DNA from: Prevotella sp. | Lineage (GTDB): Bacteria > Bacteroidota > Bacteroidia > Bacteroidales > Bacteroidaceae | Assembly: GCA_017617615.1 (NCBI GenBank) | Contig: JAFZVV010000005.1 | Location: 1-64,000 of the forward strand | Reading direction: 5' to 3' | DNA length: 64,000 nt | Shown: piece by piece, positions 282-61,145 of the stretch | Position numbering within the stretch: the stretch's first letter is position 1 | Layout: every line of letters begins with the position of its first letter | Program-made: the position numbers and the translations under genes | Notes under the pieces: generated by a model | What the model was told of the DNA's origin: nothing | Seen by the model: the letters and a program-made list of their open reading frames with translations, nothing else | The model's database searches: none

Positions 282-1733
282 ATGCATTCGAAGTCAATAT
301 ACATATTTATTATAGGCATTCTGATGATTGCTTGTTGTCCGTCTCATAAGGAGGCAGATTCACAGACGGCAAAAAGTTGTCTGGAGGAGGCAGAAACAGC
401 TTTGGCCAACGACAGCATCCGCTTGGGCGAGACCTTGCTTCGTAAAACCATCCATCTGGCAGAAGCGTCTGAGGATTGGCACACCTGTTATATCGCATAC
501 CAGCGATTGGCGGAATCATTGTCGCAGAGCAATCCGGAGGAGGCATTGCGGCTGATGATGAAAGCCCTGACCGTCTACGAGCAGCATCCTGACGATGAGC
601 GAAACCATGTCATCCTGATGGACTATGCTGGTACATACGCAGCACAAGTGGCTTTCATTAAAGAGGAATCCTTCGATGAAGCACTCGGGATCATCAACAA
701 AGCATACGATATCGCTGAGAAAAACCAGATGACCGACATGATGTGCCAGACGCTCACCAGTCTTGCAAACATCGCATGGGCAAAGGAAGACTATCGTCTG
801 GCTATCGACCATGCCCGTCATGCGGAATCCATGGCAACGGACCACCTGCTACCTGGTACGCTACAGGTGCTCGCTCGCAGTTATCTCAGCCTCAACATGC
901 TCGATTCGGCGGAAACGGTCTATCGACAGATTGAACCCGGAGAAGATGTCCATATGGCATACATCGTCCAGAGCAGCCTTGCCAAAATTGCACTTCGACG
1001 GATGAATGCCAAACAGGTGGAAGACGATATTGAGGAAGCCTTCGAGAAAATTGAAGACTTCTATTACAAGGCACTAGAACAGAAGGATCTCTACTATCAG
1101 GAGACACTGAAGCAGGAAAAGGCGAATCAGCAACTTGAATACCGTAACCAGTTATATGCTCGTACCCTTCTGATTGTCATCATTGCAGCAGCAATCATCA
1201 TCCTCGCGGTTGTAATGGCTCTCCGATATCGCATCCGCATGCTTCATCGTCAGCGAGAGTATGAGCAATCGAAATTGGAAAACGAACTGTTCAGGCAGGA
1301 ACAAGAGAAGCATCGACTCCAGCAGGAGGCAGAACATCAGAAGACCCAACTGCATCAAGCCAACGAAGTGGTGGCATTCCTTCAGAATTTCATCCTCGAA
1401 CGTTCGGAGGTGATGAAGAAACTGAACCAACAGAACCAAAATGGCGATTCGCTCATCACCCTCAAAGCACATGAATGGAAGGAGATAGAACGCACACTCA
1501 ACGCCATCGACAATGACCGTTTCGCCCATATCCGTGAGCAACACCCTGACATGCAGGAAGATGACATACGCCTGTGCATCCTTACCCGACTCGGCATCAG
1601 CAACCGCACCATTGGCAACATCTACTGTATCACCATCTCAGCCGTCCAGCATCGTAAACTCAAGTTGAAGAAGGACGTGTTCGGAGAAAGCAATCCAGAC
1701 ATCACGCTGGAACAGGTAATCAATAGCAAATAA
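282..1733 (+). CDS. Membrane-anchored TPR regulator with C-terminal HTH
   Basis: The 483-residue protein begins with a hydrophobic signal ending in a Cys-Cys pair (about residues 18-19), which resembles a lipoprotein signal or a first membrane anchor. TPR-like helical repeats fill roughly residues 30-270. A strong transmembrane segment follows at about 292-313, then a Gln/Glu-rich coiled coil to about 370. The C-terminal 60 residues resemble a LuxR-like helix-turn-helix (DDIRLCILTRLGISNRTIG). This periplasmic TPR / membrane / cytoplasmic HTH arrangement is a known Bacteroidales regulator design, thought to pass an envelope signal to DNA. It stands 100 bp upstream of two co-oriented secreted FISUMP proteins, so control of those genes is a reasonable inference. 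The exact family name is not certain. Confidence 0.75.
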   Translation: MHSKSIYIFIIGILMIACCPSHKEADSQTAKSCLEEAETALANDSIRLGETLLRKTIHLAEASEDWHTCYIAYQRLAESLSQSNPEEALRLMMKALTVYEQHPDDERNHVILMDYAGTYAAQVAFIKEESFDEALGIINKAYDIAEKNQMTDMMCQTLTSLANIAWAKEDYRLAIDHARHAESMATDHLLPGTLQVLARSYLSLNMLDSAETVYRQIEPGEDVHMAYIVQSSLAKIALRRMNAKQVEDDIEEAFEKIEDFYYKALEQKDLYYQETLKQEKANQQLEYRNQLYARTLLIVIIAAAIIILAVVMALRYRIRMLHRQREYEQSKLENELFRQEQEKHRLQQEAEHQKTQLHQANEVVAFLQNFILERSEVMKKLNQQNQNGDSLITLKAHEWKEIERTLNAIDNDRFAHIREQHPDMQEDDIRLCILTRLGISNRTIGNIYCITISAVQHRKLKLKKDVFGESNPDITLEQVINSK

Positions 1734-1834
1734 AAACCAAATGTAAAAACAATATGAAAAAGCAAATTTTGTTTCTTGTGATGATGACTACGACTCAACT
1801 TAATAAACAACAACTCAATACAATCACTACGACG

Positions 1835-3427
1835 ATGAAAAAGATTTCACTTTTACTCTTGATGTCGTTTATGACATTGTGGACTGCCAAAGCGCAGAAT
1901 GATATCACCTTGTCCTGTCCCGATGACAATCATCCTCATGCCATCGACCTCGGACTGCCCTCTGGCACCCTTTGGGCCTGTTGCAATGTGGGAGCAGACA
2001 AGCCAGAAAGTTATGGTGGCTATTACGCTTGGGGCGAGACAGAGGAGAAGACAACCTATAACTTGAGCGAATACTTGTACTATCAAAATGGAAGCTATTT
2101 GAACCTCGGCAGTGAAATAGCTGGCTCTTCGTATGATGTGGCTCATGTTATGTGGGGCGGCTCGTGGATGATGGCGTCCAAAGCCCAGCAGGATGAGTTG
2201 CGAGAAAACTGCACCTATGAGTGGACAACAGTGAACGGTGTAAAGGGAGGCAAGTTCACCAGCAAGAAGAATGGGGGTACGATCTTTCTGCCTGCGGCGG
2301 GCCTCCGCAACCATGACAAACTCTATGACATTGGCTCGGACGGATTCTATTGGTCATCAACACAGAGTACCTCATACACGAAACACGCCCACGGCCTCAC
2401 CTTCCGGTTGGGCGAAATCTACTGGGATAGCTATATCCGCGAGAGCGGCCACACAGTGCGCCCGGTTATCTGTGAATCAGCTGTTGCCAATCTTCAATTA
2501 TCATCACCCACATTGACCGTTACGGAAGGGGATATGGCATCGGTGGATATTACCTCCGGCAGTGGCAGCTATTCAGTTGAGAGCAGCAACGAGACTGTTG
2601 CAACCGCAACAATCCAGGACAATGCTGTAAGTGTTGCTGCCGTTTCAGTCGGCATCGCCACTATTGTCGTGACCGACACGAAGAGCGGTCAGACAGCAAC
2701 AGTCATTGTGACGGTAACTATATGTCCCGACAGCAATCATCCCCATGCCATCGACCTCGGACTGCCCTCCGGCACACTTTGGTCATGCTGCAACGTGGGA
2801 GCCAAAACGCCCGAAGAAGCTGGCGGTTACTACGCATGGGGAGAAACGGAAACCAAGACCATATACAACGAGGGCACCTACAATTATAAAGCCAATTATG
2901 TGAGTTTTGGTAGCGACATCGCTGGAACGGAGTATGACGTTGCCCATGTGAAGTGGGGAGGGACTTGGCAGATGCCGACAATCGACCAACTAAAAGAGTT
3001 GCTCAACAATTGCACATACGAATGGACAATGGAGAATGGAGTAATGGGTGGCAAACTCACCAGCAAGGAGAATGGGGGTACAATCTTTCTGCCTGCGGCG
3101 GGCATCCGCATGGATTACAGTCTCAACACACCCGAAAGCTTCTACTGGTCATCCACGCAGGACCCGGCGAGCTCGAAAGGTGCTTACTACCTCTGGTTCT
3201 ACTTAAACTACTACGACTGGTTCAACAACAGCCGCTGCTACGGCATGCCGGTTCGCCCCATCATAAACGAAACCAACAACGCCATTTTTCCTAAATCATC
3301 TTCAGTCATATCTAATCAAGCCGTTTATAACGTTTTCGGTATAAAAGTCGCCGACGACATGGAAAAAGCGGGCATTCTGCCTTCTGGCATCTACATCCAC
3401 GGTGGCAAGAAGGTCGTTGTAAAATAA
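1835..3427 (+). CDS. Secreted protein with two FISUMP-like domains and T9SS tail
   Basis: The start at 1835 is preferred over an upstream in-frame ATG at 1754 because it gives a clean signal peptide (MKKISLLLLMSFMTLWTAKA). The mature protein, from 530 codons, has a FISUMP-like domain (about 28-213), an Ig-like BIG2-type domain (about 217-295), a second FISUMP-like domain (about 297-478) and a C-terminal tail of the T9SS type A kind (VYNVFGIKV... GIYIHGGKK). The FISUMP assignment rests on the order DLGLPSGTLW, YYAWGE, a W-x-MP-like segment, LPAAG-R, YWSSTQ and a terminal VRPV. The function is unknown; members are surface or secreted proteins in Bacteroidetes and Fibrobacter. The two domains are partly identical in DNA, and the first closely matches the domain in the next gene. 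Confidence 0.8.
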   Translation: MKKISLLLLMSFMTLWTAKAQNDITLSCPDDNHPHAIDLGLPSGTLWACCNVGADKPESYGGYYAWGETEEKTTYNLSEYLYYQNGSYLNLGSEIAGSSYDVAHVMWGGSWMMASKAQQDELRENCTYEWTTVNGVKGGKFTSKKNGGTIFLPAAGLRNHDKLYDIGSDGFYWSSTQSTSYTKHAHGLTFRLGEIYWDSYIRESGHTVRPVICESAVANLQLSSPTLTVTEGDMASVDITSGSGSYSVESSNETVATATIQDNAVSVAAVSVGIATIVVTDTKSGQTATVIVTVTICPDSNHPHAIDLGLPSGTLWSCCNVGAKTPEEAGGYYAWGETETKTIYNEGTYNYKANYVSFGSDIAGTEYDVAHVKWGGTWQMPTIDQLKELLNNCTYEWTMENGVMGGKLTSKENGGTIFLPAAGIRMDYSLNTPESFYWSSTQDPASSKGAYYLWFYLNYYDWFNNSRCYGMPVRPIINETNNAIFPKSSSVISNQAVYNVFGIKVADDMEKAGILPSGIYIHGGKKVVVK

Positions 3428-3539
3428 CCCCGGTTATAATTTCCTCTTCCGTGGCTACAGGGATTGGGTGAAAGATGGTGTCGGAAATTCACAATTCATA
3501 TTCTACATCTTGACATTAATCAAATCAAACAATACCTCT

Positions 3540-6500
3540 ATGAAAAAAATCATATTATCAGCATTATTGCTGACATTCTCACTGTTAGCCAGTGCAGACG
3601 ATGTTGAAATAGACGGCATCTGCTACAACTTGAACCCAAGTGAAAAGGTTGCCGAAGTGACGCACCTGCATTATGGCCTTGGCGAGATCAACTGGAGCAC
3701 AAACTATCGCTTCGCTCCAGCGAACAATTCTACTGGCGAAGAGTGCTATGCCGTTCCCATGGATATGTGGGAAAGGCTGAAAACAGAAACATTCTATGTG
3801 ACAATAAAGGGTGGCTATCCCATGATTTACCTCTGCGATGGTTGGTGGGCCAACATGTTTACAGGCAATTTCATACAGCCTGGCAATAACTTGCTTGCAG
3901 ACAACGGCGACGGCACATGGACCCTCACCGTGAACTTTGCAGGCGACCCGATTCTAGATGTTCTTGACGAAAGGCACCTTCTCTTCACCGGTAGTGGATA
4001 TTCAGTTGGGGACATCTACCTGAAGGGAGCAGCCACGGGTGAAGGTTCTGAAGAGGGTCAGGAGACAATCTATGTCTGGAAAAACGGCACTTATCTATCT
4101 AATGAGGCGAACATCCCCGAGAAGATCACATATAATGATGTGGAATACACCGTGACGAGCATCGGGGAAAAAGGACTTACCGGTTTCAGCGGCCTGACCT
4201 CCGTGACCATCCCCAAATCGGTGACCTCGATCGGGCGCAATGTTTTCTTACAATGCTACAAACTGGTCTCTGTCAAGGTGGAAAGCGGCAACACGGTTTA
4301 CGATTCCCGTGAGGATTGCAACGCCATCGTCGAAACAAGCACCAACACGTTGATTGCCGGTTGCAAAAGCACGGTCATCCCCAACACCGTCACGACTATC
4401 GGAGACTTTGCATTCAACAATTGCAGTGGCCTGACCTCCATAACCATCCCCAATTCGGTGACGACAATAGGCGAGAGCGCTTTCAGTGCTTCAGGTCTTA
4501 CCTATGTGGAGATACCTGGTTCCGTGACATCGATTGGAATCTTTGCTTTCGGCGCTTGCAGTCACCTTGCCTCTGCAACCATCCCTAACTCCGTGACGAG
4601 CATCGGAGACTGGGCTTTCAGTAGCTGTATGTCCCTGACCTCTGTGACCATCCCCAACAGTGTGAAAAGAATAGGAAACCATACCTTCGCCTATTGCTAC
4701 GACCTGGCCACCGTCATCATTCCCAATAGTGTGACAAGCATCTGTGATAGCGCATTCCTAAGTTGTACTCGTTTGAAAGACATGTACTGCCATGCAGAAC
4801 AAGTTCCTGAAACCGGCACCAACATTTTTGACAATTCCAATCAAGCAAATGCAACGCTCCACGTGCTTTCCGCCTCTGTGGATGCCTACGGCAACGCAGA
4901 GCAATGGAAAGACTTTAAGGAAATCGTGGCACTGCCGGTTATGGATGATTACCGCAAGATGGTAAAAGATGGCAAGGTATGGAAGACTGGACTCTACGGC
5001 TCAGGCAATCCTGTGCGGCTTATCGAGTACTTCTACTTCGATGGCGACACCATCATAGACGGGAAAACCTGCAAGCAGATGATGTGCCAGCGGTATAACA
5101 ACCTGGATGCATCAGATGATGACTCACAACTTTCATCATTGACTTACGTTGGAGCATGGTATGAAGAGGATCGGAAAGTGTACACTTACGACACGGCAAA
5201 CAAGCAATTTGTGCTGATGTACGACTTCTCCGTTGAAGCCTATGACACCCTGGTGATCAATCAGGAATATTATAGGATAGGGCCAAAGCAGACAGGAGGA
5301 TTAAAAGGCTTCAAGGGTGTCTATAGAGATGTTTGGTATTTGGTGGAAGAAGGCAACCCCATCTACAGCCCAACTTGGTTGGAAGGCGTAGGAAGTATTG
5401 ATGGCCCTACAACAAACGTCTATTCCGGGTATGTAGATCCTCTGAGATTCCTCATGTCATGTACCGATGCTGACGAAGTCATCTATTTCAACGACAAATA
5501 TGAGGATGGAGCCACACCAGAGGAGATGAATGCCAACAAACACCGTTTCGACTTCACCCATACTGTTAAGACACAGCCTAAAGCACCGAGTATGGGAGGG
5601 GAAGAAAGGCAAAAGGGAGTCGAGCCAGCGGATACGCTGTCGATATATGGTGAATACAGCCAACAACAGTTGAGCATTCACCTCGACCCGCTCGTTGAAA
5701 CCTACGTGGTATGCATTACAAACGAATCAAACGAGGTCGTCTATGAAAGAACCATCAATACAGTCGATATTGTCGGCCTCAACATCGACATCTCCACCTA
5801 TGCAGAAGGTTGTTATACGGCAACTGTGGAGAATAGCAATGAATCTTTCGTTGGAGAATTCGAAGTGCAAGCCACTGGGAATGACATCACCTTGTCCTGT
5901 CCCGATGACAACCATCCCCATGCCATCGACCTCGGACTTCCCTCAGGCACGAAATGGGCGTGCTGCAACGTTGGGGCGAGCACCCCAGAGGGTTACGGCG
6001 GCTATTATGCTTGGGGCGAGACGGAAGAGAAAGATGTATACGATTGGGAGACATATCAATATGGCAGTGGTTTGTTTAATTGTCAGGATCTCGGCGATAT
6101 TGCCGGCACTAGTTATGACGTGGCCCATGTCAAGGGCTTTGGCCCAGAGAAGGGTTCATGGCAGATGCCATCTAGGAATCAAATCGAGGAACTTTATAAC
6201 AACTGTACCTACGCAGGGATATCCAAGAACGGTGTCAATGGTGGTCTGTTCACTGGACCGAATAGCGGCAAAATTTTCATGCCGGCTGCGGGCTTCCGTT
6301 GGCTTGACGGTCTTAGCAACGCTGGTAGCGGTGGCTACTATTGGTCCTCCACGCAGGATCCGTTATATTCGCACTACGCCTACCACCTCGAATTCTTTTC
6401 GGTCAATGCGTATTATAGCGAATACTTCCGTAGCGTCGGTCACAATGTTCGTCCCGTCCTTAATGGAACCAACAACATCAATCCTCCTGAATCACCTTCA

Positions 6501-6623
6501 GACAAAGCCAGCCATACCATTTACAACATCTACGGCATAAAGGTTGCATCTTACCCGAAAGAAATAGACAACCTACTCCCCGGCATCTACATTGTCAACG
6601 GCAAAAAAATCGTGATAAAGTGA
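3540..6623 (+). CDS. Large secreted BspA-LRR / FISUMP protein with T9SS tail
   Basis: The start at 3540 gives a typical signal peptide (MKKIILSALLLTFSLLASA). A frame-extending ATG at 3468 adds residues with no signal. The 1027-residue product has an aromatic-rich N-terminal domain (about 20-175), seven or so BspA-type leucine-rich repeats (about 190-410, units like LTSVTIPNSVTSIG..AF), a Prevotella-type middle domain beginning MVKDGKVWKTG (about 465-720), one FISUMP-like domain (about 784-977) and a T9SS-type tail (IYNIYGIKV... GIYIVNGKK). BspA repeats are associated with adhesion in oral and gut Bacteroidetes. The FISUMP segment is nearly the same in DNA as the first one in the preceding gene, which suggests domain shuffling. 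A surface or secreted adhesin is the most likely role. Confidence 0.8.
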   Translation: MKKIILSALLLTFSLLASADDVEIDGICYNLNPSEKVAEVTHLHYGLGEINWSTNYRFAPANNSTGEECYAVPMDMWERLKTETFYVTIKGGYPMIYLCDGWWANMFTGNFIQPGNNLLADNGDGTWTLTVNFAGDPILDVLDERHLLFTGSGYSVGDIYLKGAATGEGSEEGQETIYVWKNGTYLSNEANIPEKITYNDVEYTVTSIGEKGLTGFSGLTSVTIPKSVTSIGRNVFLQCYKLVSVKVESGNTVYDSREDCNAIVETSTNTLIAGCKSTVIPNTVTTIGDFAFNNCSGLTSITIPNSVTTIGESAFSASGLTYVEIPGSVTSIGIFAFGACSHLASATIPNSVTSIGDWAFSSCMSLTSVTIPNSVKRIGNHTFAYCYDLATVIIPNSVTSICDSAFLSCTRLKDMYCHAEQVPETGTNIFDNSNQANATLHVLSASVDAYGNAEQWKDFKEIVALPVMDDYRKMVKDGKVWKTGLYGSGNPVRLIEYFYFDGDTIIDGKTCKQMMCQRYNNLDASDDDSQLSSLTYVGAWYEEDRKVYTYDTANKQFVLMYDFSVEAYDTLVINQEYYRIGPKQTGGLKGFKGVYRDVWYLVEEGNPIYSPTWLEGVGSIDGPTTNVYSGYVDPLRFLMSCTDADEVIYFNDKYEDGATPEEMNANKHRFDFTHTVKTQPKAPSMGGEERQKGVEPADTLSIYGEYSQQQLSIHLDPLVETYVVCITNESNEVVYERTINTVDIVGLNIDISTYAEGCYTATVENSNESFVGEFEVQATGNDITLSCPDDNHPHAIDLGLPSGTKWACCNVGASTPEGYGGYYAWGETEEKDVYDWETYQYGSGLFNCQDLGDIAGTSYDVAHVKGFGPEKGSWQMPSRNQIEELYNNCTYAGISKNGVNGGLFTGPNSGKIFMPAAGFRWLDGLSNAGSGGYYWSSTQDPLYSHYAYHLEFFSVNAYYSEYFRSVGHNVRPVLNGTNNINPPESPSDKASHTIYNIYGIKVASYPKEIDNLLPGIYIVNGKKIVIK

Positions 6624-6680
6624 AAGTAAAAAATTTGCTTGCTCGAGATCTTCCGAACGTTAACGATTTGGAGCAACGCT
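6608..6680 (+). repeat. Dispersed repeat, copy 1, at the 3' end of the FISUMP gene
   Basis: AATCGTGATAAAGTGA, then a TTGCTTGCTCGA core and TTCCGAACGTTAACG. It begins in the last codons of the gene. Related copies stand at about 50537 (again the end of a FISUMP gene) and 60811. Confidence 0.5.
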
Positions 6681-7003
6681 CAAAATCGCATTCATATAAC
6701 AATTGATAATTGAAGATAGGAACAACTTTGTGTTAATCCTATTAAACCGAATGAAAACCTGCTGAAAATCAGTTTAATAAAAGATTTTTGAAGCCCTAAA
6801 AAAGGTTTTTGATTGTTTTGTGCTGTCGGCATTATCGAATACTTTTGCAGTGTTTGATGGTGCCGACAACTGTGTTTTGGAGGTTTCTATAGCAAGAGGT
6901 TTTTTCGTAACACGAAAAACTCTTGAACACCTGGCAACAGGTGTTGGAATCTGAGTACTCGCAGGCTCGCACCTCTATGTTTAACGCTAAACGGAAATGA
7001 AAG
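6624..7003. other. 380-bp gap before the mobilisation genes
   Basis: It holds the tail of dispersed repeat copy 1, an AT-rich stretch, and a near-perfect Bacteroidetes promoter at 6817-6847. The leader after that promoter is about 150 nt and contains an inverted repeat around 6895-6930 (GAGGTTTTTTCGTAACACG / CGAAAAACTC-like arms) plus an AACACCTGGCAACAGGTGTT palindrome at about 6925-6944. This is the left edge of the accessory island. Confidence 0.5.
6817..6847 (+). promoter_or_regulatory. Consensus Bacteroidetes promoter for mob genes
   Basis: TTTG at 6817-6820, a 19-nt spacer, then TACTTTTG at 6840-6847. Both elements match the sigma-ABfr consensus. The first downstream start codon is at 7004, leaving a leader of about 150 nt that includes a 20-bp palindrome. 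Confidence 0.7.
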
Positions 7004-7405
7004 ATGAAGGATAACGACACACGCAAAAGAATCATGAGGAGAAGGGGAAGACCTCGCAAGTCGACGACCGACAACTCCCCAACCAGAAAGACCAAAACGC
7101 TCCGACTCACGGAGGAAGAAGTGAAGCACATCGCCGAGAATGCCAGACGATGCCGTAAGAACTTCAGCGAATACTGCCGGCAGGTGCTCATGGGCTACAA
7201 GCCCGGCGTGCCCGACCCCGAACTAAGGGACGGACTGTTTGCCGCAAGGAAGGACATGGTCAACTTCATCAACAACATCCGAGGGCTGAACATGACCAGG
7301 GAAGAAAGGTCGAGATTCCTCGCCTCGATGCCGACCATCAGGATATGGTGGAAGGCGTTGTTCTCAGAAATTGAATGGATTGACAAACATATGGAAAGGA
7401 TGTAG
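7004..7405 (+). CDS. MobC-like relaxosome accessory protein
   Basis: This is a 133-residue basic protein. Its N-terminus is rich in Arg and Lys (RKRIMRRRGRPRKS). The next part resembles a ribbon-helix-helix DNA-binding segment (KTLRLTEEEVKHIAENARRC). A helical C-terminus containing FINNIRGLN follows. In Bacteroides mobilisable plasmids and transposons such a protein precedes the relaxase, binds oriT and helps nicking. The next gene starts 3 bp after its stop and looks relaxase-derived, which supports the assignment. Start: ATG at 7004, about 150 nt after a consensus promoter. It appears intact even though its partner is not. Confidence 0.75.
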   Translation: MKDNDTRKRIMRRRGRPRKSTTDNSPTRKTKTLRLTEEEVKHIAENARRCRKNFSEYCRQVLMGYKPGVPDPELRDGLFAARKDMVNFINNIRGLNMTREERSRFLASMPTIRIWWKALFSEIEWIDKHMERM

Positions 7406-7408
7406 GAT

Positions 7409-8113
7409 ATGATAGCAAGGGCAAGAGCCATCGCGCATGGCAACGCATACACCACATACTCCACACTGAAACGGGACGCGGAGTTCATCTGCAGTGAGAA
7501 CATGGTTGGGGATATGACCGTGGCCGTCACGGAAGATGACCTCGAGAGCATCTGGATGCAGTTCAAATACGCCAGGGAGAACTATCTCTCCAAGGGCAAG
7601 CCGGTGACCAGGAACCTCATCGCCATGGAGGTGTCACCAACCAAGGAGGAGTCCAGGGGATGGACGGCGGAACAATGGAGCCTGTTCGCACACCGATTCA
7701 TCGAGGAGATGGACAAAATCGAGTTCAGGGACAAGGAGGGCAATGTGTCATCGAGACGGACGTATGCCGAGCGGGAGTACCTTCGACGAAGCCAAAAGCC
7801 CATAGACTCATCGGGTCAAAGCACGCCAAAACTGACCAATGTCGATTCCATATACATTGCCAAGCACAAGAATGGAAAGTACTACTTACGGGTCGTCTTC
7901 AACAACTATGGCCGTTCAGAGATATTCTTCCTTTCAAAGGAAGAGACACGCACCTTCCTGTTGGCGGCAGATACCAAAAAGCGAGAACAACTCAAAGAAC
8001 AGTTCGCCTTCAAGTATCTCCTGCGTGCTTCTGGCGGCAGCTATGACCAAAACAGGGAATGGGAAGTTGGCAATGGATATGATGACGATGATGGAAGGGG
8101 ACTGAAAAGATAA
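7409..8113 (+). CDS. Relaxase, internally deleted, without catalytic histidines
   Basis: The N-terminus (MIARARAIAHG, then a segment reaching EVSPTKEESRGWT) resembles the start of Bacteroidetes MobB-type relaxases. The C-terminus (FAFKYLLRASGGS, DQNREWEVG) resembles their end. The HUH motif region (a Thr/His-rich strand of the kind H-x-D-x-x-x-H-x-H) that should follow around residue 125 is absent: the frame passes from a Lys/Glu-rich linker straight into the C-terminal region. At 234 residues it is shorter than the roughly 300-400 usual for the family. I infer an in-frame internal deletion and a catalytically dead product. Its last 190 bp recur at 11712-11898 and its extreme end at 9640-9738. 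An alternative is a divergent accessory protein that only borrowed both ends. Confidence 0.6.
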   Translation: MIARARAIAHGNAYTTYSTLKRDAEFICSENMVGDMTVAVTEDDLESIWMQFKYARENYLSKGKPVTRNLIAMEVSPTKEESRGWTAEQWSLFAHRFIEEMDKIEFRDKEGNVSSRRTYAEREYLRRSQKPIDSSGQSTPKLTNVDSIYIAKHKNGKYYLRVVFNNYGRSEIFFLSKEETRTFLLAADTKKREQLKEQFAFKYLLRASGGSYDQNREWEVGNGYDDDDGRGLKR

Positions 8114-8138
8114 TGCTTTTTCCCTTTGATTTCACATA
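7928..8138 (+). repeat. Relaxase 3'-end repeat, copy 1 (within the gene)
   Basis: From TTCCTTTC at 7928 to about 25 nt past the stop at 8113. Copy 3 (11712-11920) aligns along the whole length at about 85 percent identity by eye. The similarity continues past the stop codon (AAAAGATAATG versus AAAAGATGATG, then a TTTCCCT run). Confidence 0.75.
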
Positions 8139-8527
8139 ATTTGCCAAATTGAACTTTTTTGCTTTTTATAGCAGAATATCCCGATTGGGATAGCAGAAAG
8201 AACTGCAGCAAAACCCAAATCAATGAAAAACAACAAGACCGTCAAAGCATCTCTTACATCCCAACTTTTCACAAAAAAGTATAGGAAAACAAACAAGATG
8301 ATGTTTACCCCTAAGGTGATTGCCAATGCGGGTATCCACCAAGCCTTGTGTTTTAATACATTCCAAATAAGATTTCCAAATATTGTGTAAGCGAGAATGT
8401 GGAGGAAAAAGTATGATGGGCAATCCATATAGAACCCTATTCCAGCGAAATATAACAAAGGATGCAGCAACAAGGCAACAAATGCCAGGAAAAGCATCCA
8501 CAAAGTGGAATTGATTATCGTTTTCAT
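8132..8527 (-). CDS. Small four-helix membrane protein, unknown
   Basis: The 131-residue product from the start at 8527 (an ATG 15 nt further upstream is also possible) is almost entirely hydrophobic. It has about four predicted transmembrane segments, near residues 7-28, 42-60, 68-92 and 100-122. I recognise no family. It is cargo in the first interval between relaxase-tail copies. It runs convergently to the relaxase gene, with only 18 bp between the stop codons, and its base composition is more AT-rich than the core genes to the right. The upstream gene on the same strand is a lipoprotein. Confidence 0.65.
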   Translation of the reverse strand: MKTIINSTLWMLFLAFVALLLHPLLYFAGIGFYMDCPSYFFLHILAYTIFGNLIWNVLKHKAWWIPALAITLGVNIILFVFLYFFVKSWDVRDALTVLLFFIDLGFAAVLSAIPIGIFCYKKQKSSIWQIM

Positions 8528-8605
8528 CTTATTTGATATCATAAAACTTCCCTTGTATCAACTTTTCTGGATCATGACATCAGGGATGATTGTTCATGGG
8601 AAGAC

Positions 8606-9499
8606 TTACTCGAATGAAAAAGGCGAGCTATTGCCATTGACATTTTTAAACTGGCCGCTGTATGACCCGTTTCGCAATGTGCCAATCAATTTACCTGTCT
8701 CTTTTTCATCTTTCACAACACTCAGCACTAATTGTCCCGCATCGTAGCTGACGAACTTGACATCACGCTGCTGGTTGAACTCATAGTCTTTTCCTCTGGA
8801 ATTGTATAGCAAATAGCCTTGTTTGTTGTCAAACGATAGACGGGTGGCACAACCGTCCATTGGACCTTCCACGCAGAAAGACAATGGCTCTTTGGCAACC
8901 ACTATCTTTTCTTGCGTCTTGATGAGTTCCTCGATTTCCTTTTCTGAGAGATGAAATAGCGATACGAATTCATCGAAAGATAAGTCGCAGATTTTCAACA
9001 GTTGACTACTTTCACTTTCCGTTGAGGATGATAATTCCTTGGTTTTCAAGGTGGCAGTTCCTCCACGCATTATATCTACGCCGGGAATGATTTCCTGTGC
9101 CATTTTTCCATTACCCCAATAACCTTCCTTATAGAGTATGGAATAAGCTTTGCCCGGTATGTCGTATGGCGTGTCGTTCTTCACCGTGAATGTGATGCCC
9201 TCACAAGATATCCATTCGCCTTCGTGAAAACAATCGCCATAGGTATCACTCTTGATTATGGTCAGACCGTTTCTCAATTCGGGATAGAATCTTTGATACA
9301 GATAAAATAACTGTTCATCTTTCAAAGCTTCGGAACCGACATTGCCCGTGCGCAAGTCTTGAGAAACGAAGTGTTCTTGTTCACTCGTTTCTGCTTCCAT
9401 AGCCTTGCCTTTTTCTTTTCTCATACAGGATAATTGCATAAATAATGCAATGCTCAAGGTCAACAGGAAGATTATGATGTTACAATATGTATGTTTCAT
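8606..9499 (-). CDS. Putative lipoprotein, unknown function
   Basis: The start at 9499 is chosen because it gives a lipoprotein signal (MKHTYCNIIIFLLTLSIALF, then MQLSC, with the Cys as lipid site). The longer frame to 9637 has no signal. The 297-residue protein has no motif I recognise. Its middle reads FTVKNDTPYDIPGKAYSI..., which suggests a beta-rich periplasmic domain, followed by a Ser/Glu-rich linker and a helical part (LSEKEIEELIKTQ). It is the second cargo gene in the interval between relaxase-tail copies 1 and 2. It may be co-transcribed with the small membrane protein 78 bp downstream. Confidence 0.65.
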   Translation of the reverse strand: MKHTYCNIIIFLLTLSIALFMQLSCMRKEKGKAMEAETSEQEHFVSQDLRTGNVGSEALKDEQLFYLYQRFYPELRNGLTIIKSDTYGDCFHEGEWISCEGITFTVKNDTPYDIPGKAYSILYKEGYWGNGKMAQEIIPGVDIMRGGTATLKTKELSSSTESESSQLLKICDLSFDEFVSLFHLSEKEIEELIKTQEKIVVAKEPLSFCVEGPMDGCATRLSFDNKQGYLLYNSRGKDYEFNQQRDVKFVSYDAGQLVLSVVKDEKETGKLIGTLRNGSYSGQFKNVNGNSSPFSFE

Positions 9500-9639
9500 A
9501 CATCGATGATGCTTGTTTCTCATCCGCAAATATAGGAAATAAAGCGGAATGAACTTGTCTTTATTGGCATTTCTTAACACAATAGACTGATTTTTTGCAT
9601 CATGATTCTTTTCTGCTTTCACAGCACAAACAACCATAG

Positions 9640-9738
9640 AAAGTGAAACTTGTCCCGGATGGAGGCGGGAGTCTCGACCAAAACAGAGAATGGGAAGTAG
9701 GACGTGAGCAATATGAAGGTGATGATGGAAAAAAATGA
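9640..9738 (+). pseudogene. Relaxase 3'-end fragment, copy 2
   Basis: Reading aaa at 9640 to the TGA at 9736-9738 gives KVKLVPDGGGSLDQNREWE followed by VGREQYEGDDGKK. This aligns with the C-terminus of the relaxase at 7409-8113 (ASGGSYDQNREWEVG...). A TAG lies directly upstream in frame and no start codon is present, so it is a remnant. It has the same orientation as the parent gene. Confidence 0.75.
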
Positions 9739-9838
9739 AAGGTGTGAAGAAAGAATCTACAAGTTAAAAGCAATTTTCAGAAAATATAATAAAGGCATTT
9801 TATTCACGTTATTTTCATTGAAAACCAAACAAATAAAT

Positions 9839-10678
9839 ATGGCAAGTGTTAGACCCACACTGGAAGATTTTAGCAATTCCATTAACAAGTACATAGGCTT
9901 TATCCCTATGTGCTTTGTAAGTTGGTTCGTCTGGTCAATGATAGATGACCCATTTATGGCCGATTTGCTTTTCGCATTGGGTTTTTGGTTTATAAATCCA
10001 TTAGTAGTGTGGGCAATTGTGGTCTTTCTGCAGTCTTTTTGGACGAAAGGACTTCTGTGGAAAATCTATATGATTTGGGGATGTGCCATTATCATATTGA
10101 TTGGAGCATATTATATCTCCCCAACAAAGTTTGGCACGATATGCAATCCCGACATCATGGCTGAACATTATGACAAGAACAAGTCGGAATTACAAGAACT
10201 TATCAATTACACCAACCAAAGCTTAGACAAAGGGGCTCAAATGCAACTTGAATTCGAGCATGGTGAGATTTCGATATTCCATGTATTAGGGAAGAATGAT
10301 TCATTAAGGTCGAATAATTGGGATGTCCGTTCAGAAGAGAGAATTGACTCCTTAATGCATGTGGTGGGATTGAATCATGAAGAACTCAAAAATATCCGAC
10401 GTAAACTAAAAAAGTTAGGCTGCATTTCCATTGAAACAGCAACCACACATTCTGATTTTGTTGACATCGGTTTTCGACGCGTGGATTTGGGCATGTATTC
10501 CTATCGCATCTATAACCGTCCCATGAACGCCGAGGAAAAAAAGAAATACGACGAGGATCCAATGTTCATACCCTATACCGACAGAGTTGTATTCGAATAT
10601 GGCGGAGGTGCTATCGGCCCTCAAACATTTGGAGAAGAAATCAAGGAAGAGTTTATGAAAAAACATTCAGTGAAGTGA
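9839..10678 (+). CDS. Membrane protein with C-terminal soluble domain, unknown
   Basis: The start at 9839 (MASVRPTLEDFSN) is preferred; the in-frame ATG at 9704 overlaps the relaxase remnant. The 279-residue product has three or four transmembrane segments in residues 17-105 (FIPMCFVSWFVWSM, LLFALGFWFINPLVVWAIVV, IYMIWGCAIIILIGAYYI). A hydrophilic domain of about 170 residues rich in charged helices follows. I recognise no catalytic motif. It lies in the second interval between relaxase-tail copies and runs 49 bp ahead of a secreted protein in the same direction. Composition is AT-rich relative to the core genes. Confidence 0.65.
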   Translation: MASVRPTLEDFSNSINKYIGFIPMCFVSWFVWSMIDDPFMADLLFALGFWFINPLVVWAIVVFLQSFWTKGLLWKIYMIWGCAIIILIGAYYISPTKFGTICNPDIMAEHYDKNKSELQELINYTNQSLDKGAQMQLEFEHGEISIFHVLGKNDSLRSNNWDVRSEERIDSLMHVVGLNHEELKNIRRKLKKLGCISIETATTHSDFVDIGFRRVDLGMYSYRIYNRPMNAEEKKKYDEDPMFIPYTDRVVFEYGGGAIGPQTFGEEIKEEFMKKHSVK

Positions 10679-10695
10679 GTTTTTCTGAAAAGTTG

Positions 10696-10703
10696 TATAT
10701 TTG
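10696..10703 (+). promoter_or_regulatory. -7 box (TATATTTG) before secreted cargo protein
   Basis: TATATTTG matches TAnnTTTG and ends 24 nt before the ATG at 10728. No good -33 element is visible. Confidence 0.5.
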
Positions 10704-10727
10704 CAATGTAAAATCTTATATACTATA

Positions 10728-11645
10728 ATGCCAAGAAAAGTCAGTCTTTTATGCATCCTTCTGGTTTTGTGCACGGCAATTCAGGGACAGAACCGGTCAC
10801 AGGCAACCTTGTTGAAAAAAGCCTATAAACAGAACTCGACATCGTTGCTGTATCAGTTTTTTGACAATTGGTCCAATGATGTTTCATCTAATGAGAATGA
10901 AACAAAAAGCAAATGGGTGGCTGAGGCCCATAAGGTTTTTGCCGCTTTCTATCAACCACTCCAACTGGAAAAAATCGGGTGTAGAAGCGAAGACAAAGAC
11001 CTGTATGAAGATATGCCGTATTTTATTGTGCAAAGCACATTAGATGAGATTTGCGTGACGGATACCATCCCGATCAGCCCTGACGAACTTGAGGCCTATT
11101 ACACAAATCGTATCAATCAGATTTACTCGGAAGACAGTATTCGCAAAAAACAACTGGATATGCTCCGAAGATTCAAAGAAAGAGGAGAGTTATCCCCAAA
11201 ATTTGATTTTAAATACTATGGCTTCTCTGGGGGAAAAATTCCTACCACCAAGGTGGATTCAACTGTTTCGTTTCGCCCTCCCGTAAACATCCCCGACAAG
11301 AAAATTGTCTATCTAACCACTGAGTACAAACAGTTGCTCGACAACTTTTTGGGTAACAGCCACGTCGGTTTTGCAAAAGAGAGCATCATGCAAGTCGCCT
11401 CTTCAAAAGGTGAAAGCCAGAAAAGGATGGATTTCTTCAATACTGCCGCCAGGATATTCTATGGACACTGGGGAGGCTATTGGCAATATGAAACCTATCC
11501 CAAAGCCACATCCATCGTTATTGATTCCCAAATGCAACGTGCCGTCGTTTTCTTCCGATTCGTCTATGAGGGTGGTGAAGTAATCTTGGAAAAACAGAAT
11601 GGCGAATGGACCATTGTATCTGGCAAACTCACATGGATGGAATAA
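10728..11645 (+). CDS. Secreted protein of unknown function (island cargo)
   Basis: The start at 10728 gives a signal peptide (MPRKVSLLCILLVLCTAIQG) and follows a -7 box at 10696-10703. The longer frame from 10701 begins inside that box and is unlikely. The mature protein, from 305 codons, is hydrophilic with many Tyr, Lys and Glu residues. Its C-terminus (AVVFFRFVYEGGEVILEKQNG) looks like the last strands of a small alpha/beta domain. I recognise no family. It ends 66 bp before relaxase-tail copy 3. It may form a pair with the membrane protein just upstream. Confidence 0.65.
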   Translation: MPRKVSLLCILLVLCTAIQGQNRSQATLLKKAYKQNSTSLLYQFFDNWSNDVSSNENETKSKWVAEAHKVFAAFYQPLQLEKIGCRSEDKDLYEDMPYFIVQSTLDEICVTDTIPISPDELEAYYTNRINQIYSEDSIRKKQLDMLRRFKERGELSPKFDFKYYGFSGGKIPTTKVDSTVSFRPPVNIPDKKIVYLTTEYKQLLDNFLGNSHVGFAKESIMQVASSKGESQKRMDFFNTAARIFYGHWGGYWQYETYPKATSIVIDSQMQRAVVFFRFVYEGGEVILEKQNGEWTIVSGKLTWME

Positions 11646-11711
11646 ACAAACATCATCAATGTCTTGATGAAACGATGTAAGAACCTCATCTTTTAGTGGC
11701 TTATCAAAATG

Positions 11712-11898
11712 GTTCCTTTCCAAGAAAGAGACACGCGCCTACCTGTTGGCGGCGGATGCCATGGAACGAGAACGACTCAAACAACAATTCGCTTTCAAGT
11801 ATCTTCTGCGTGCCTCAGGCGGCAGCCATGACCAAAACAGGGAATGGGAGGTTGGCAATGGGTATGATGGCGATGATGAAAGGGGGATGAAAAGATGA
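11712..11898 (+). pseudogene. Relaxase 3'-end fragment, copy 3
   Basis: In the frame ending at the TGA 11896-11898 it reads FLSKKETRAYLLAADAMERE, then a stretch to FAFKYLLRASGGSHDQNRE, WEVGNGYDGDDERGMKR. This is clearly the C-terminal 60 residues of the relaxase at 7409-8113, about 85 percent identical in DNA by eye. It has no N-terminal part and no start, so it is a remnant. The orientation is the same as copies 1 and 2. Confidence 0.8.
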
Positions 11899-11934
11899 TG
11901 TTCCTTTCCCTATGGTAAGAACCCATCCTATTCT

Positions 11935-13350
11935 TTATTGAGGGTCAATATTTAATGGCATAAAGTGTTTTTCACGCACAGGTTTTCCGTGAAGCATTGC
12001 AGGTTCCCATTTGGGCATAGACTTAACCACACGAACCATTTCTCTATCCAATGCCGACATTTCACTTTGTTCAACTAGGACTGTGCTTGATGTGCCATCT
12101 TCCTTTATGCAAGGTCGCTCCACATTGACATCACTAATCGAACCGTCTTTCTCTACATAAAATGACACAAGCACACGTCCTTGCGGACACTCTTTCATTT
12201 CTTCAGGATATTGGATGTTTTTTGCAAGCCACGACATCAGTTTCCCTTGTCCGCCAGGGAAACTGGCACGTATTTCCGCTATTTGTATATTTGCTTCATC
12301 TGATTCGTCTATCGAATCCAAATCAGCCAAAGATAGTTCACCTATTTCACCCACTTTTATAAAAGATTTGATTCCGAGTGAATAGGTGTCAATCATAGCA
12401 TCTAACATTGTGAATACAATTCTATTATTGATAGAATCAAAATCAGCAGTGATGAAATTAGGGCCAGACACTCTTCCCCTTGCCACATTTTCCCATTGAC
12501 TTTTCCCCTGCTTAAAAATATTAATTAGAAAAATAGATACCCCTGACCCTATTGGTAAAAAACAACAATAATAACTTTTCCCTTGTATTTTTAATACCTT
12601 AGTGAAATCCTTAATATATTGTTGTGGAAAGTCTTTAAAATAGTAATCTCTAATTTGGCAGGTATCAGGAAAACCTATATGTTCAAGGCTGTCTTGATTA
12701 ACCCATTCTATCTTATTGCAATTCATTTTTCTGGCTTCCTCCGTCTGCCAATTTCCATTATAGACAGAATCCATCAACTCATTGGCCAACTCGACAAGTG
12801 TGTTCTGCAACAAGTATGATTTGGCCCGTCGGTTCCCAACGAAAAACTCCCAAGTCGGATCTTCAAAGATGAATTCCTCCTCCTTGGACTCTGCATTTTG
12901 GATTGCATTAGTCCAAACCTCTTTCAATTTTTGAGCCTGTTCGTCAGTAATGTTGAGCGTATAGGTTCCCACCTCAGGTGCCGCATAATTGTATATGTGT
13001 TTCCTTGGCACTATCCTTACCTTATTGCCAACCTTATTTCTCTTGGTAGTGGCCATGCTTGTGGCCTCATAGATGTTTCTAAATGCTTTGATGTAAACGA
13101 GCGTGTGGTTGACAGAATCATATGTCAACGATGATTCGGAATGGAAATATGGAACACGAATGACACCGAACAGAGTATTCTTTGGAACAAGCAACCGAGC
13201 CAATTCCTTGTCGTAGAGAGACAAAGTTAAATCTTTCTGTCGCCATGCAATTGATGCGCTGTCAACACGTATGAGTCTATCCTGTGCAAATCCGGATAAA
13301 GAGAAAAGGACAATTGCCAAGACTAAAAAAGATTTTGAAGTCTTTTTCAT
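11935..13350 (-). CDS. Secreted protein with TonB C-terminal domain
   Basis: The 471-residue protein has a signal peptide (MKKTSKSFLVLAIVLFSLSG, then FAQ) and a large unassigned N-terminal region. It ends in a TonB_C domain (about residues 385-471): SWLAKNIQYPEEMKECPQG, then VLVSFYVEKDGSISDVNVE and a final VKSMPKWEPAMLHGKPV motif. Many Bacteroidetes envelope proteins carry this domain after unrelated N-terminal parts. Here there is no N-terminal transmembrane anchor and no Pro-rich spacer, so classical energy transduction is doubtful. It is cargo in the third interval of the island. A broken TonB_C fragment lies 146 bp upstream of its start in the opposite direction. Confidence 0.75.
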   Translation of the reverse strand: MKKTSKSFLVLAIVLFSLSGFAQDRLIRVDSASIAWRQKDLTLSLYDKELARLLVPKNTLFGVIRVPYFHSESSLTYDSVNHTLVYIKAFRNIYEATSMATTKRNKVGNKVRIVPRKHIYNYAAPEVGTYTLNITDEQAQKLKEVWTNAIQNAESKEEEFIFEDPTWEFFVGNRRAKSYLLQNTLVELANELMDSVYNGNWQTEEARKMNCNKIEWVNQDSLEHIGFPDTCQIRDYYFKDFPQQYIKDFTKVLKIQGKSYYCCFLPIGSGVSIFLINIFKQGKSQWENVARGRVSGPNFITADFDSINNRIVFTMLDAMIDTYSLGIKSFIKVGEIGELSLADLDSIDESDEANIQIAEIRASFPGGQGKLMSWLAKNIQYPEEMKECPQGRVLVSFYVEKDGSISDVNVERPCIKEDGTSSTVLVEQSEMSALDREMVRVVKSMPKWEPAMLHGKPVREKHFMPLNIDPQ

Positions 13351-13495
13351 AATTTCATCTTTTTCTTTTATAACGTATGATTATCGGATTTATTACAGGA
13401 ATAAGTGTAAATGAGAACCATGAAAATCTTTGATTTGATGATATTTAAGAATAATTGGCAGAATAAGAATAACTGATTCATAGGGAGGGTTGTAA

Positions 13496-13732
13496 CAAAA
13501 TATCCATTATCCATCAGGGTGCGCTTGTGTTCAGGGGCTAGTGGTGATATCTTTCTTTGTCGAACTAGATGGTTCTTTAAGCGACATTGAGATTGTGCGC
13601 AAAGTTAATCCGGAACTTGATGAAGAAGCACTCCGTGTAGTGAAAGCTATGCCGAAATGGTTTCCTGCAAAGCAGAATAACACACCGATAAGAGCGAAAA
13701 TGACCATGCCCATCGAATTCAGATTGCAATGA
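13496..13732 (+). pseudogene. Orphan TonB C-terminal domain fragment
   Basis: Directly after an in-frame TAA at 13493-13495 the frame reads QNIHYPSGCACVQGLVVIS, then FFVELDGSLSDIEIV, ALRVVKAMPKWFPAKQNN and MPIEFRLQ. This is the whole TonB_C domain from its usual NI-x-YP start, with no N-terminal protein and no convincing start codon (GTG at 13541 is internal to the domain). It resembles the C-terminus of the gene at 11935-13350 but lies on the other strand. I treat it as the 3' remnant of a deleted gene at the island edge. Confidence 0.7.
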
Positions 13733-13777
13733 GTGGTTCTTCATAAGTCGGGAAAAAGTCGGGAATTTTAGACATAC

Positions 13778-13819
13778 AAAAATCGCCAAGACTTGAAAAT
13801 CAAGCACTTGGCGATTTTT
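13778..13819 (-). terminator. Rho-independent terminator after tRNA-Gln
   Basis: The hairpin arms AAATCGCCAAG and CTTGGCGATTT flank an inner ACTTGA/TCAAG stem, with a T-run on the minus strand. It stands 5 nt beyond the 3' end of the tRNA and also separates it from the island. Confidence 0.8.
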
Positions 13820-13823
13820 AAAG

Positions 13824-13894
13824 TTGGGGTACTCGGACTCGAACCAAGAATGACAGGACCAGAATCTGTAGTGTTACCATTACACCATACCCCA
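13824..13894 (-). tRNA. tRNA-Gln (anticodon CTG)
   Basis: On the minus strand the acceptor arms TGGGGTA and TACCCCA pair over seven bases. The D-arm (GTGTAATGGTAACAC) and the T-arm (CTTGG TTCGAGT CCGAG) are intact. The anticodon loop is TTCTGGT, giving CTG, which reads CAG (Gln). The discriminator is A and CCA is not encoded. There is one mismatch at the base of the anticodon stem. A promoter lies at 13940-13970 and a terminator follows at 13778-13819. The tRNA's 3' end faces the accessory island, the usual side for integration into tRNA genes. No duplicated attachment core was found by eye. Confidence 0.88.
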
Positions 13895-49175: not shown

Positions 49176-50552
49176 ATGAAAAAACTACTTTCTGTTCTTT
49201 CCATGATTATTGTAGTGTTAACGACCTATGCACAAACTTGTCCCGATGACAACCACCCACATGCCATCAACCTGGGGCTACCGTCGGGCACGAAGTGGGC
49301 GTGCTGCAACGTAGGGGCAGACAAGCCCGAAGGATTTGGTGGTCACTATGCTTGGGGCGAGACAGAGGAGAAAGAAGCGTATAATGAAGTCACATATCAA
49401 TATTGTACAGGTGAAGACCCCAACGATTACGGATGGTATGGCCAAAATACGCAATATCAGGACATTGGCAATGATATCGCAGGCACGCAATACGATGTCG
49501 CGCACGTGAAATGGGGCGACTCGTGGGTAATGCCGTCGGTTGATGAAATCAAAGAATTGTTCTACAACTGCACTTGCACTTTGACGTATATGAACGGTGT
49601 TTTTGGTCAAAAATTCACCAGTAAGAGCAATGGTGCTTCCATTTTCTTGCCTGCAGCGGATCTCTCCTACCCCGGTCTCATCGGCGAATACTGGTCGTCT
49701 ACGCAGCAACAGTCGAACTTGAAATGGGCCTATGGTCTGTATTTCCATTCAGACGGCACGAACTGGGATTACTTCGCCCGCGCCATCGGTCTCACGATAC
49801 GCCCGGTCAAAAAAGGAACCGATGCACAAACTTGTCCCGATGAAAACCATCCACATATCATCGACCTGGGCCTGCCGTCCGGCACGAAGTGGGCGTGCTG
49901 CAACGTGGGGACAGACAAGCCTGAGGGCTACGGTGGTTACTATGCATGGGGAGAGACGGAGGAGAAGACTTCTTACGATTGGAGCACCTACACGCTTTGC
50001 GACGGTAGTGAAAGCACCTGCCACGATATAGGCAGCAACATTGCCGGCACGGAATACGACGTTGCGCACGTGAAATGGGGTGGTTCCTGGGTGATGCCGA
50101 CAAAAGACCAGCTGGCGGAATTGTTGTATTATTGCACCAGTCAGTGGACAACGAAGAACGGGGTCAATGGTCGGGCTTTCACAGGTCGAAATGGCTGCAC
50201 GATATTCTTGCCTGCGGCAGGCTTCTATTGGTTTGATGAAATCCTCGACACTGGCATCATCGGCGACTACTGGTCGTCCACACAGGGTCAGTCAGGTTCG
50301 CACACCGCCTGTGGCATGGATTTCAATGACGGTGGCAGGTCGCGGTTTGAAGGCTACCGCTACTGCGGTCGCTCGGTTCGCCCAGTCTTAAGCGAAACAA
50401 ATAGCATAAATCTTCCTCAAATATCTTCTTTCAAATCAAGCCAAGCCATCTATAACCTCTACGGTATAAAAGTCGCAGACACCATAGCCCACATCGAAGC
50501 CCTGTCTCCTGGCATCTACATCGTCAATGGCAAGAAAATCGTGATTAAGTGA
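49176..50552 (+). CDS. Secreted protein with two FISUMP-like domains and T9SS tail
   Basis: The 458-residue protein has a signal peptide (MKKLLSVLSMIIVVLTTYAQ) and then two FISUMP-like domains (about 21-208 and 219-404). The domains share LGLPSGTKWACCNVG, YYAWGETEEK, VAHVKWG-SWVMP, FLPAA and YWSSTQ. A T9SS-type tail follows (IYNLYGIKV... GIYIVNGKK). It is a close paralogue of the genes at 1835 and 3540 and even shares their signature in DNA. It contains only FISUMP units and no Ig spacer. The 3' end runs into dispersed repeat copy 2. Confidence 0.8.
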   Translation: MKKLLSVLSMIIVVLTTYAQTCPDDNHPHAINLGLPSGTKWACCNVGADKPEGFGGHYAWGETEEKEAYNEVTYQYCTGEDPNDYGWYGQNTQYQDIGNDIAGTQYDVAHVKWGDSWVMPSVDEIKELFYNCTCTLTYMNGVFGQKFTSKSNGASIFLPAADLSYPGLIGEYWSSTQQQSNLKWAYGLYFHSDGTNWDYFARAIGLTIRPVKKGTDAQTCPDENHPHIIDLGLPSGTKWACCNVGTDKPEGYGGYYAWGETEEKTSYDWSTYTLCDGSESTCHDIGSNIAGTEYDVAHVKWGGSWVMPTKDQLAELLYYCTSQWTTKNGVNGRAFTGRNGCTIFLPAAGFYWFDEILDTGIIGDYWSSTQGQSGSHTACGMDFNDGGRSRFEGYRYCGRSVRPVLSETNSINLPQISSFKSSQAIYNLYGIKVADTIAHIEALSPGIYIVNGKKIVIK

Positions 50553-60873: not shown

Positions 60874-61083
60874 TTTAATGTTTATGTGTCGCCAGACAGA
60901 TAATCTTTGGCTGGAATAAATTCCTTCGTTTTCTCGCCAAGGCAAAATGCAAGCACTATGCTCTTCTGGCTTAACGAAAACGTTCAAATTGATTCAAAAA
61001 GGTAGGGAAAAGAAAGGTTGGGATGGCATTTTGAGGCAAAATGAAGATTTTTAAGCCAATTTTATGCTTTTTCTACGAAAAAG

Positions 61084-61115
61084 TTTGGCTATTCCAAATT
61101 AAAGCAGTACCTTTG
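61084..61115 (+). promoter_or_regulatory. Promoter for the Abi_2 gene
   Basis: TTTG at 61084-61087, 20-nt spacer, TACCTTTG at 61108-61115: close to the full consensus. Transcription should start near 61122, so start codons at 61041 and 61059 are excluded. Confidence 0.7.
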
Positions 61116-61145
61116 CACCACCAGAACCCGCCAAGCCTCTCCACG

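Follow-up and report, generated by a model that had tools for sequence, protein, structure and literature searches.

A probably composite, decayed mobilizable element with repeated relaxase gene ends at a tRNA-Gln gene of Prevotella sp.

The first 64,000 nucleotides of contig JAFZVV010000005.1 of Prevotella sp. (assembly GCA_017617615.1), analysed as one stretch and termed the window, contain near their left end an accessory island in which cargo genes stand beside repeated copies of a relaxase gene's 3' end, here called tails. The island is probably a composite, decayed integrative and mobilizable element (IME) at the 3' end of a tRNA-Gln(CTG) gene, made by tandem accretion and deletion. The limits of 7004-13740 in the original prediction turned out to be too narrow: rightwards the island reaches the tRNA-Gln gene at 13823-13894, and leftwards, judged by the related genome G002 (RUG071), it extends with genes for a tetratricopeptide repeat (TPR)-like and a leucine-rich repeat (LRR) protein to the window edge.

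Three tails were recognised, all on the plus strand, and the statements on them rest on DNA comparisons and open reading frames (ORFs). Tail1 (7793..8124) is the 3' end of a MobB-type relaxase gene and was delimited by comparison of the window with the genomes G002 and G399. Tail2 (9645..9738), the last approximately 30 codons of a relaxase, lies outside any complete gene and is present in G002, too. Tail3 (11713..11909) is a further relaxase 3' end. The segments 7928-8124 and 11713-11909 form a direct repeat of 197 nt with about 85 % identity, and 63-nt direct repeats are located in all three tails (8032-8094, 9663-9725 and 11817-11879), with 70-73 % identity to the middle copy. Tail2 comprises only about 90 bp and has a likeness of about 70-78 % to the other tails. 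In a BLASTN search of 8131-13740 with 7793-8130 as bait, the copies at 11.7 kb and 9.7 kb scored 231 and 44.6 bits, the top score across 200 dinucleotide shuffles of the same target being 31.9 bits. The recurrence of a relaxase-like gene end at both places in the same orientation, as originally predicted, thus holds and goes beyond chance. The AT-rich character of the cargo between the tails was also confirmed, with a GC content of 0.35-0.45 per 500 bp versus about 0.52 in the mob genes. The tail motif was detected at E <= 1e-4 in 16 of 398 genomes of the genus; a tail-cargo array is not common. A duplication of tails within the island was considered and is not favoured, since tail1 and tail3 are each nearer to the relaxase end of G399 (87.7 % and 88.8 %) than to each other (86.1 %).

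In relatives, intact relaxases normally end in the tail: it closes open frames of 476-566 codons at the loci L004, L005, L006, L007 and L009, and its last approximately 33 residues are likewise the terminus of other relaxase groups, whose open frames have about 500-540 codons. At L005 and L007 the block is opened by an integrase-like gene, named by its likeness, and closed by the relaxase. The gene order in intact relatives is integrase, further genes, NikA, relaxase, in part cargo, and then the right attachment (att) site, attR, at the 3' end of a tRNA gene; the MobB-type relaxase is the last backbone gene of the IMEs and cargo, if any, is placed between its stop codon and attR. An IME of this arrangement in genome G003 lies between perfect 32-bp repeats at tRNA-Gln(TTG), with its cargo placed between relaxase and attR. 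Tail1 with the adjoining membrane gene corresponded to the relaxase end and membrane gene of G399 with 86.5 % identity over 771 bp; tail2, a spacer and the next membrane gene were colinear with relaxase end, spacer and membrane gene of G003. As the colinearity crosses the stop codon at these relaxase-cargo junctions, tail1 and tail2 have to be seen as relics of separate elements rather than local duplicates. According to the same alignments, two of the three units, those of tail1 (unit 1) and tail2 (unit 2), consist of a tail and the cargo that goes with it, in agreement with the earlier proposal that elements joined repeatedly and left mob gene ends beside different cargo. The relaxase C-terminus GGSxDxNREWEVG...DDxRxLKR (window 8033-8110; L004-L009, L022-L042) is common to several otherwise divergent relaxase groups; one may guess at a transfer or coupling-protein signal. 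A limited search found no literature on relaxase-tail arrays or a MobB C-terminal signal, a weak negative.

The ORF that ends in tail1 (7409..8113, plus strand) is a chimera of an MbpB-like relaxase N-terminus (residues 1-118) and a MobB-type C-terminus, as revealed by homologue alignments and the genome G071. The relaxase-like gene of the original prediction is a fusion of two relaxase types, the second of which contributes the repeated C-terminal part. The middle part of either parent relaxase is absent, so the island represents a decayed derivative and not an intact IME. Most of 88 homologues of its product aligned solely to residues 1 to about 125 or solely to about 119-234; the search took proteins of 0.55-1.75 times the query length, which placed full-length MobB-type relaxases outside its range. 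G071 is colinear with window 4713-7762 (84 %, 3068 bp), covering LRR gene, candidate origin of transfer (oriT), NikA and relaxase N-terminus, with 93 % amino acid identity for residues 1-118. Past the equivalent of 7762, the 423-codon relaxase of G071 continues and is followed by one further gene and then tRNA-Gln(CTG); it matched NCBIfam MbpB with E 8e-26 and 91 bits, under the cut-off of 400. After 7762 the window shows instead the C-terminal part of the second type; a full-length relative matched PF03432 (E 1.8e-21) and Bacteroid_MobB (E 1.3e-23, below its cut-off). The chimera is preceded by a gene for a NikA-like relaxosome accessory protein (7004..7405, plus strand; PF21983, E 2.8e-10; 91 % amino acid identity to G071) and, upstream of nikA, by a hairpin-rich candidate oriT (6846..7003, plus strand), which is colinear in G071. 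Its predicted DNA fold had a z of -3.0, equal folding occurring in 2 of 200 shuffles. G002 has kept the candidate oriT (94 % identity) despite the loss of nikA and the relaxase N-terminus. Of an own mobilization module, as expected for an IME, the window thus presents NikA, a candidate oriT and a chimeric relaxase.

The relaxase switch at 7762 falls within a dispersed repeat in the relaxase linker. Sequence comparison placed the right half of this repeat at 7763 to about 7793-7798 (plus strand), with the chimera junction at its left edge. The repeat has a length of about 70 bp and the core CCGAGCGGGAGTACCTTCGGCGAAGCC, and is in tandem at some loci. Allowing up to three mismatches, the core was found in 6 of 13 genomes searched (G001, G002, G004, G005, G208, G399), a reversed control pattern giving no matches. 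It is located both outside and inside genes; in MobB-type relaxases it occupies the linker, in two different reading frames in different genes. G002 breaks at the same repeat, its left side differing from that of the window. The repeat-coded peptide, defined by one regular expression, was present in 19 of the 88 homologues, preceded mostly by relaxase linker, otherwise by ATPase-like sequence (P0054), G002-type sequence (P0032, P0037) or unrecognised sequence (P0006).

The integration target, tRNA-Gln(CTG), lies at 13823..13894 on the minus strand, next to genes that we take to be RsfS- and FtsH-like. A terminator stem and the tRNA 3' end (13775..13837) correspond to the att repeat of G002 and thus probably represent the attR side. 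Related material is present at this site in six other Prevotellaceae genomes (G002, G399, G208, G094, G001, G071). Constant cargo across related genomes, which would have spoken against an active assembly, was not seen; the cargo varies. In G002, 55-bp repeats with one mismatch, about 11.0 kb apart, enclose in order a tyrosine integrase beside attL (PF00589, E 2.6e-6), an AlbA-type regulator, the TPR-like and LRR proteins, the candidate oriT, tail1, a membrane gene, tail2, a membrane gene and a TonB_C remnant. From this order, an integrase is expected beyond the left edge of the window. In G399 a 382-codon relaxase piece, cut by the contig end, is followed by a membrane protein, more cargo and a TonB_C gene. 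In G208, the unit 2 membrane gene is represented by its end, next to a lipoprotein-like gene and the TonB_C remnant. G094 carries a 0.78-kb element with one TonB_C gene between two exact 13-bp att cores, and in G071 the MbpB-type element that is colinear with the window's left part occupies the site. G001 presents a unit 2 cargo relic, an att core, an element of about 24 kb, a second att core and tRNA-Gln; the large element (C47:2189-26442; L129, L130) is prophage-like, with an integrase (PHROG, E 9e-18) and a tape-measure protein (E 1e-33), and the RsfS of G001 is the closest to that of the window (92 % amino acid identity). A tandem of elements on the att of one target gene is therefore seen at this very site in G001, and would be the origin of the window's island. 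Integrase and att repeats at the target gene, the marks of an IME, are both present in G002 and G003, the window showing the tRNA side. A cis-mobilizable element (CIME) keeps attL and attR without integration and transfer genes, and the 0.78-kb element of G094 fits by its two cores; the G002 island keeps an integrase and is thus not a strict CIME. This island (L055, G002:C12) has integrase, regulator and candidate oriT and no complete relaxase, and from this gene content is a candidate for mobilization in trans.

The tRNA-Gln/RsfS stretch was matched in 280 of 299 genomes of the genus. The survey covered the 30 best loci, each with up to about 1.5 kb of upstream DNA, a sample biased to the most similar sites. 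Twenty-nine of them had tRNA-Gln(CTG), three of these 29 with cargo homologues upstream (G002, G094, G208) and one with a second exact 13-bp core (G094), several others having a variant core that is invisible to an exact search. RsfS was on the opposite side at L166 and L175. Two weak matches, L154 (19 codons to the tail3 query) and L165 (27 % to the protein of 1754-3427), were set aside as chance.

Accretion and deletion would have shaped the island as follows. Elements of this IME family would enter the tRNA-Gln att, and later elements would integrate at the same att beside the residents, a step that G001 shows with its prophage. DNA between one layer's cargo and the following relaxase would subsequently be deleted, taking with it the integrase, the inner att and the 5' part of the relaxase; a layer would thus survive as a relaxase 3' end with its downstream cargo. 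One layer of the window would be MbpB-type, with LRR protein, candidate oriT, NikA and relaxase N-terminus, the equivalent of G071; two MobB-type layers would follow, one with tail1, membrane protein and lipoprotein, as in G399, and one with tail2 and membrane protein, as in G003, and tail3 with the TonB protein would probably be a third MobB-type layer. End stages may be represented in G094 by the 0.78-kb element and, at tRNA-Leu(TAG), by a short relic in which an element left end is joined to the last approximately 40 relaxase codons. We infer the deletions at the inner junctions, the order of events and the origin of each junction by accretion and deletion rather than by recombination between elements.

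Several observations weigh against this explanation. The search for a second att copy in the window gave only short, chance-level matches, and the spacers that precede tail2 and tail3 showed no match to the left end of any element. The island's left end lies beyond the window. The tail3 unit is located left of a TonB_C remnant and seems to be what truncated that gene; as this remnant follows unit 2 cargo in other genomes, simple stacking at attR fails for the tail3 unit without further steps. A source element for tail3 and the TonB protein was not found in the 20 genomes searched, whose loci were not inspected for tails. Further points are the different cargo that can occupy the position after the unit 2 membrane gene and the repeat at 7762; the relatives are draft genomes, and the tails served as search bait, so that the prominence of 3' ends is partly an effect of ascertainment.

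A mosaic built by recombination between co-resident or incoming IMEs has to be taken as a serious rival, albeit an unlikely one. Crossovers within and near the relaxase gene, illegitimate or at short repeats, would each add a relaxase end with its cargo and leave the older tail. The position of the 7762 junction inside the dispersed repeat, the break of G002 at this repeat next to another left flank and the homologue P0054, in which ATPase-like sequence is joined to the tail at this repeat, are in line with such exchange, as are the alternative genes behind the unit 2 membrane gene and the seeming insertion of the tail3 unit into older cargo. However, no placed breakpoint coincides with a tail boundary, tandem occupancy of this very site is seen in G001, and for units 1 and 2 the relaxase and its cargo have colinear counterparts in elements at other places, as an origin from whole elements predicts. 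A cassette system with the tail as attachment site, to which the second inference of the original prediction would amount, is extremely improbable. Tails do part unrelated cargo in the window, in G002 and in G001:C37, where an array consists, in order, of a gene that is 92 % identical to cargo of the G003 element, a relaxase end that matches G003 at 94 % and 54 bp left from the unit 1 membrane gene; yet a precise gain or loss from tail to tail was not seen in these comparisons, the tail is ordinary coding sequence for a C-terminus conserved in several relaxase groups, and tail2 is short and divergent. An artefact in which a draft assembly collapsed or mis-joined the relaxase repeats is very unlikely as well. 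The draft state of the relatives and the lack of independent confirmation for tail3 would allow for it, but the order tail1, membrane gene, tail2, membrane gene recurs in the separate assembly of G002, and the window tails are just 70-86 % alike.

The breakpoints that could be placed by comparison with relatives are 7762, 8529/9461, 10679/13669 and 13497. None of these lies at the boundary of a tail. The original view that tails were recombination points importing cargo is not supported, and an integron-like organisation, with a recombination site at each unit boundary and precise gain or loss of units, does not agree with these positions. The left edges of tail2 and tail3 are breakpoints, too, and no relative shows the prior state there. 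Only the first 12 codons of the unit 1 lipoprotein gene are left in G002, identifying this difference as a deletion in G002. G001 and G002 have one junction in common, that of unit 2 membrane gene and TonB_C remnant. Most island pieces of the window and G002 were 88-94 % identical (LRR gene 81 %), the flanking chromosome only 66-76 %, an indirect sign that the composite moved between species. For G001, a chromosome identity of 91 % and a shared cargo identity of 79 % suggest separate acquisitions of the cargo.

Among known systems, polymorphic toxins form orphan arrays of toxin tails and immunity genes, likewise repeated gene 3' ends with an own downstream gene each; here, in contrast, the repeated part is the conserved and not a variable end, and no toxin or immunity family was found at cut-off among the window proteins. 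MbpA/MbpB-type Bacteroidales elements of the Tn4555 kind (MbpB is presumably linked to Tn4555) share the NikA-like and MbpB-like pair with the island's left layer, complete in G071, whereas in the window residue 118 is the last of the MbpB-like part and the end of another relaxase follows. With MobB/MOBP-type Bacteroidales IMEs the family shares the PF03432 relaxase, the Bacteroid_MobB match below cut-off, the tyrosine integrase and a tRNA target. NBU1 and NBU2 are MobP IMEs at tRNA-Leu and tRNA-Ser (PMC5704250), the targets here being tRNA-Gln and tRNA-Leu; the likeness does not imply NBU membership. The closest parallel is the accretion of IMEs or integrative and conjugative elements (ICEs) with CIMEs: the same text follows an element from its integration through decay to a CIME to the arrival of a further element at attR, and cites Pavlovic 2004 and Bellanger 2011. 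The tRNA 3' end, decay, stacking that includes prophages and att-bounded mini-elements without integrase are common features; the window differs in having no inner att sites, so that its layers are distinguished by relaxase 3' ends and cargo. The original statement that no such system had been described was not upheld, since PMC5704250 covers how IMEs accrete in tandem with decayed elements at tRNA genes. The array is a clear case of a known kind of process with an unusual signature, not a new system.

The cargo is diverse. A TPR/regulator-like protein (282..1733, plus strand) shares 92 % of its amino acids with a protein of the att-bounded G002 island (93.4 % on the nucleotide level over 1343 bp), and a BspA-type LRR surface protein (3468..6623, plus strand; PF13306, E 1.5e-50) is colinear in G002 and G071. 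Unit 1 comprises a small membrane protein (8132..8542, minus strand), found behind the relaxase in G399 (85 % amino acid identity) and behind tail1 in G002 (88 %), and the lipoprotein-like gene (8606..9496, minus strand) mostly deleted in G002. The membrane protein of unit 2 (9839..10678, plus strand) has its counterpart directly 3' of the relaxase in the G003 IME (80 % amino acid identity; G002 89 %). A secreted protein (10728..11645, plus strand) had a homologue (78 % amino acid identity) in one of 20 genomes searched, G071, where it is preceded by a remnant of the unit 2 membrane gene end, too. The TonB_C-domain protein beside tail3 (11935..13350, minus strand; PF03544, E 6.2e-09) was matched in all 20 genomes searched, chiefly through the common domain, its unique part having homologues of 50-51 % at best. 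The ORF 13541-13732 belongs to a 5'-truncated TonB_C gene remnant (13497..13732, plus strand), the complete homologue of which adjoins tRNA-Gln in G399 and G094. A viral origin and a defence or phage nature of the cargo were rejected: for seven proteins, PADLOC gave one weak match to defence systems (2TM 'Effector', E 0.004) and PHROGs two weak phage matches of unknown function; 19 stretches of viral contigs were matched by pattern, none of them a relative by tblastn. Two side observations concern the wider window: a domain starting CPD(D/S)NHPHAI(D/N)LGLPSGT recurs in proteins within and outside the island (1754-6623, 49176-50552), and an Rfam abiF RNA (61127-61163, 55.7 bits, E 1.1e-7) lies where the ORF 61041-62096 region begins.

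It is conceivable, though quite doubtful, that the MobB-type relaxase gene end and the linker repeat are preferred breakpoints, by which stacked IMEs shed inner integration and transfer genes and keep the cargo, a ratchet towards composites without relaxase. Larger composites would then keep integrase and oriT, like that of G002, and depend on mobilization in trans. Orphan relaxase tails may serve as bait for hidden IME relics. As marks of the layers, relaxase 3' ends tell which element brought a cargo gene, and the island offers a readable record of the stacking and erosion of mobile elements at one tRNA gene in Prevotellaceae.

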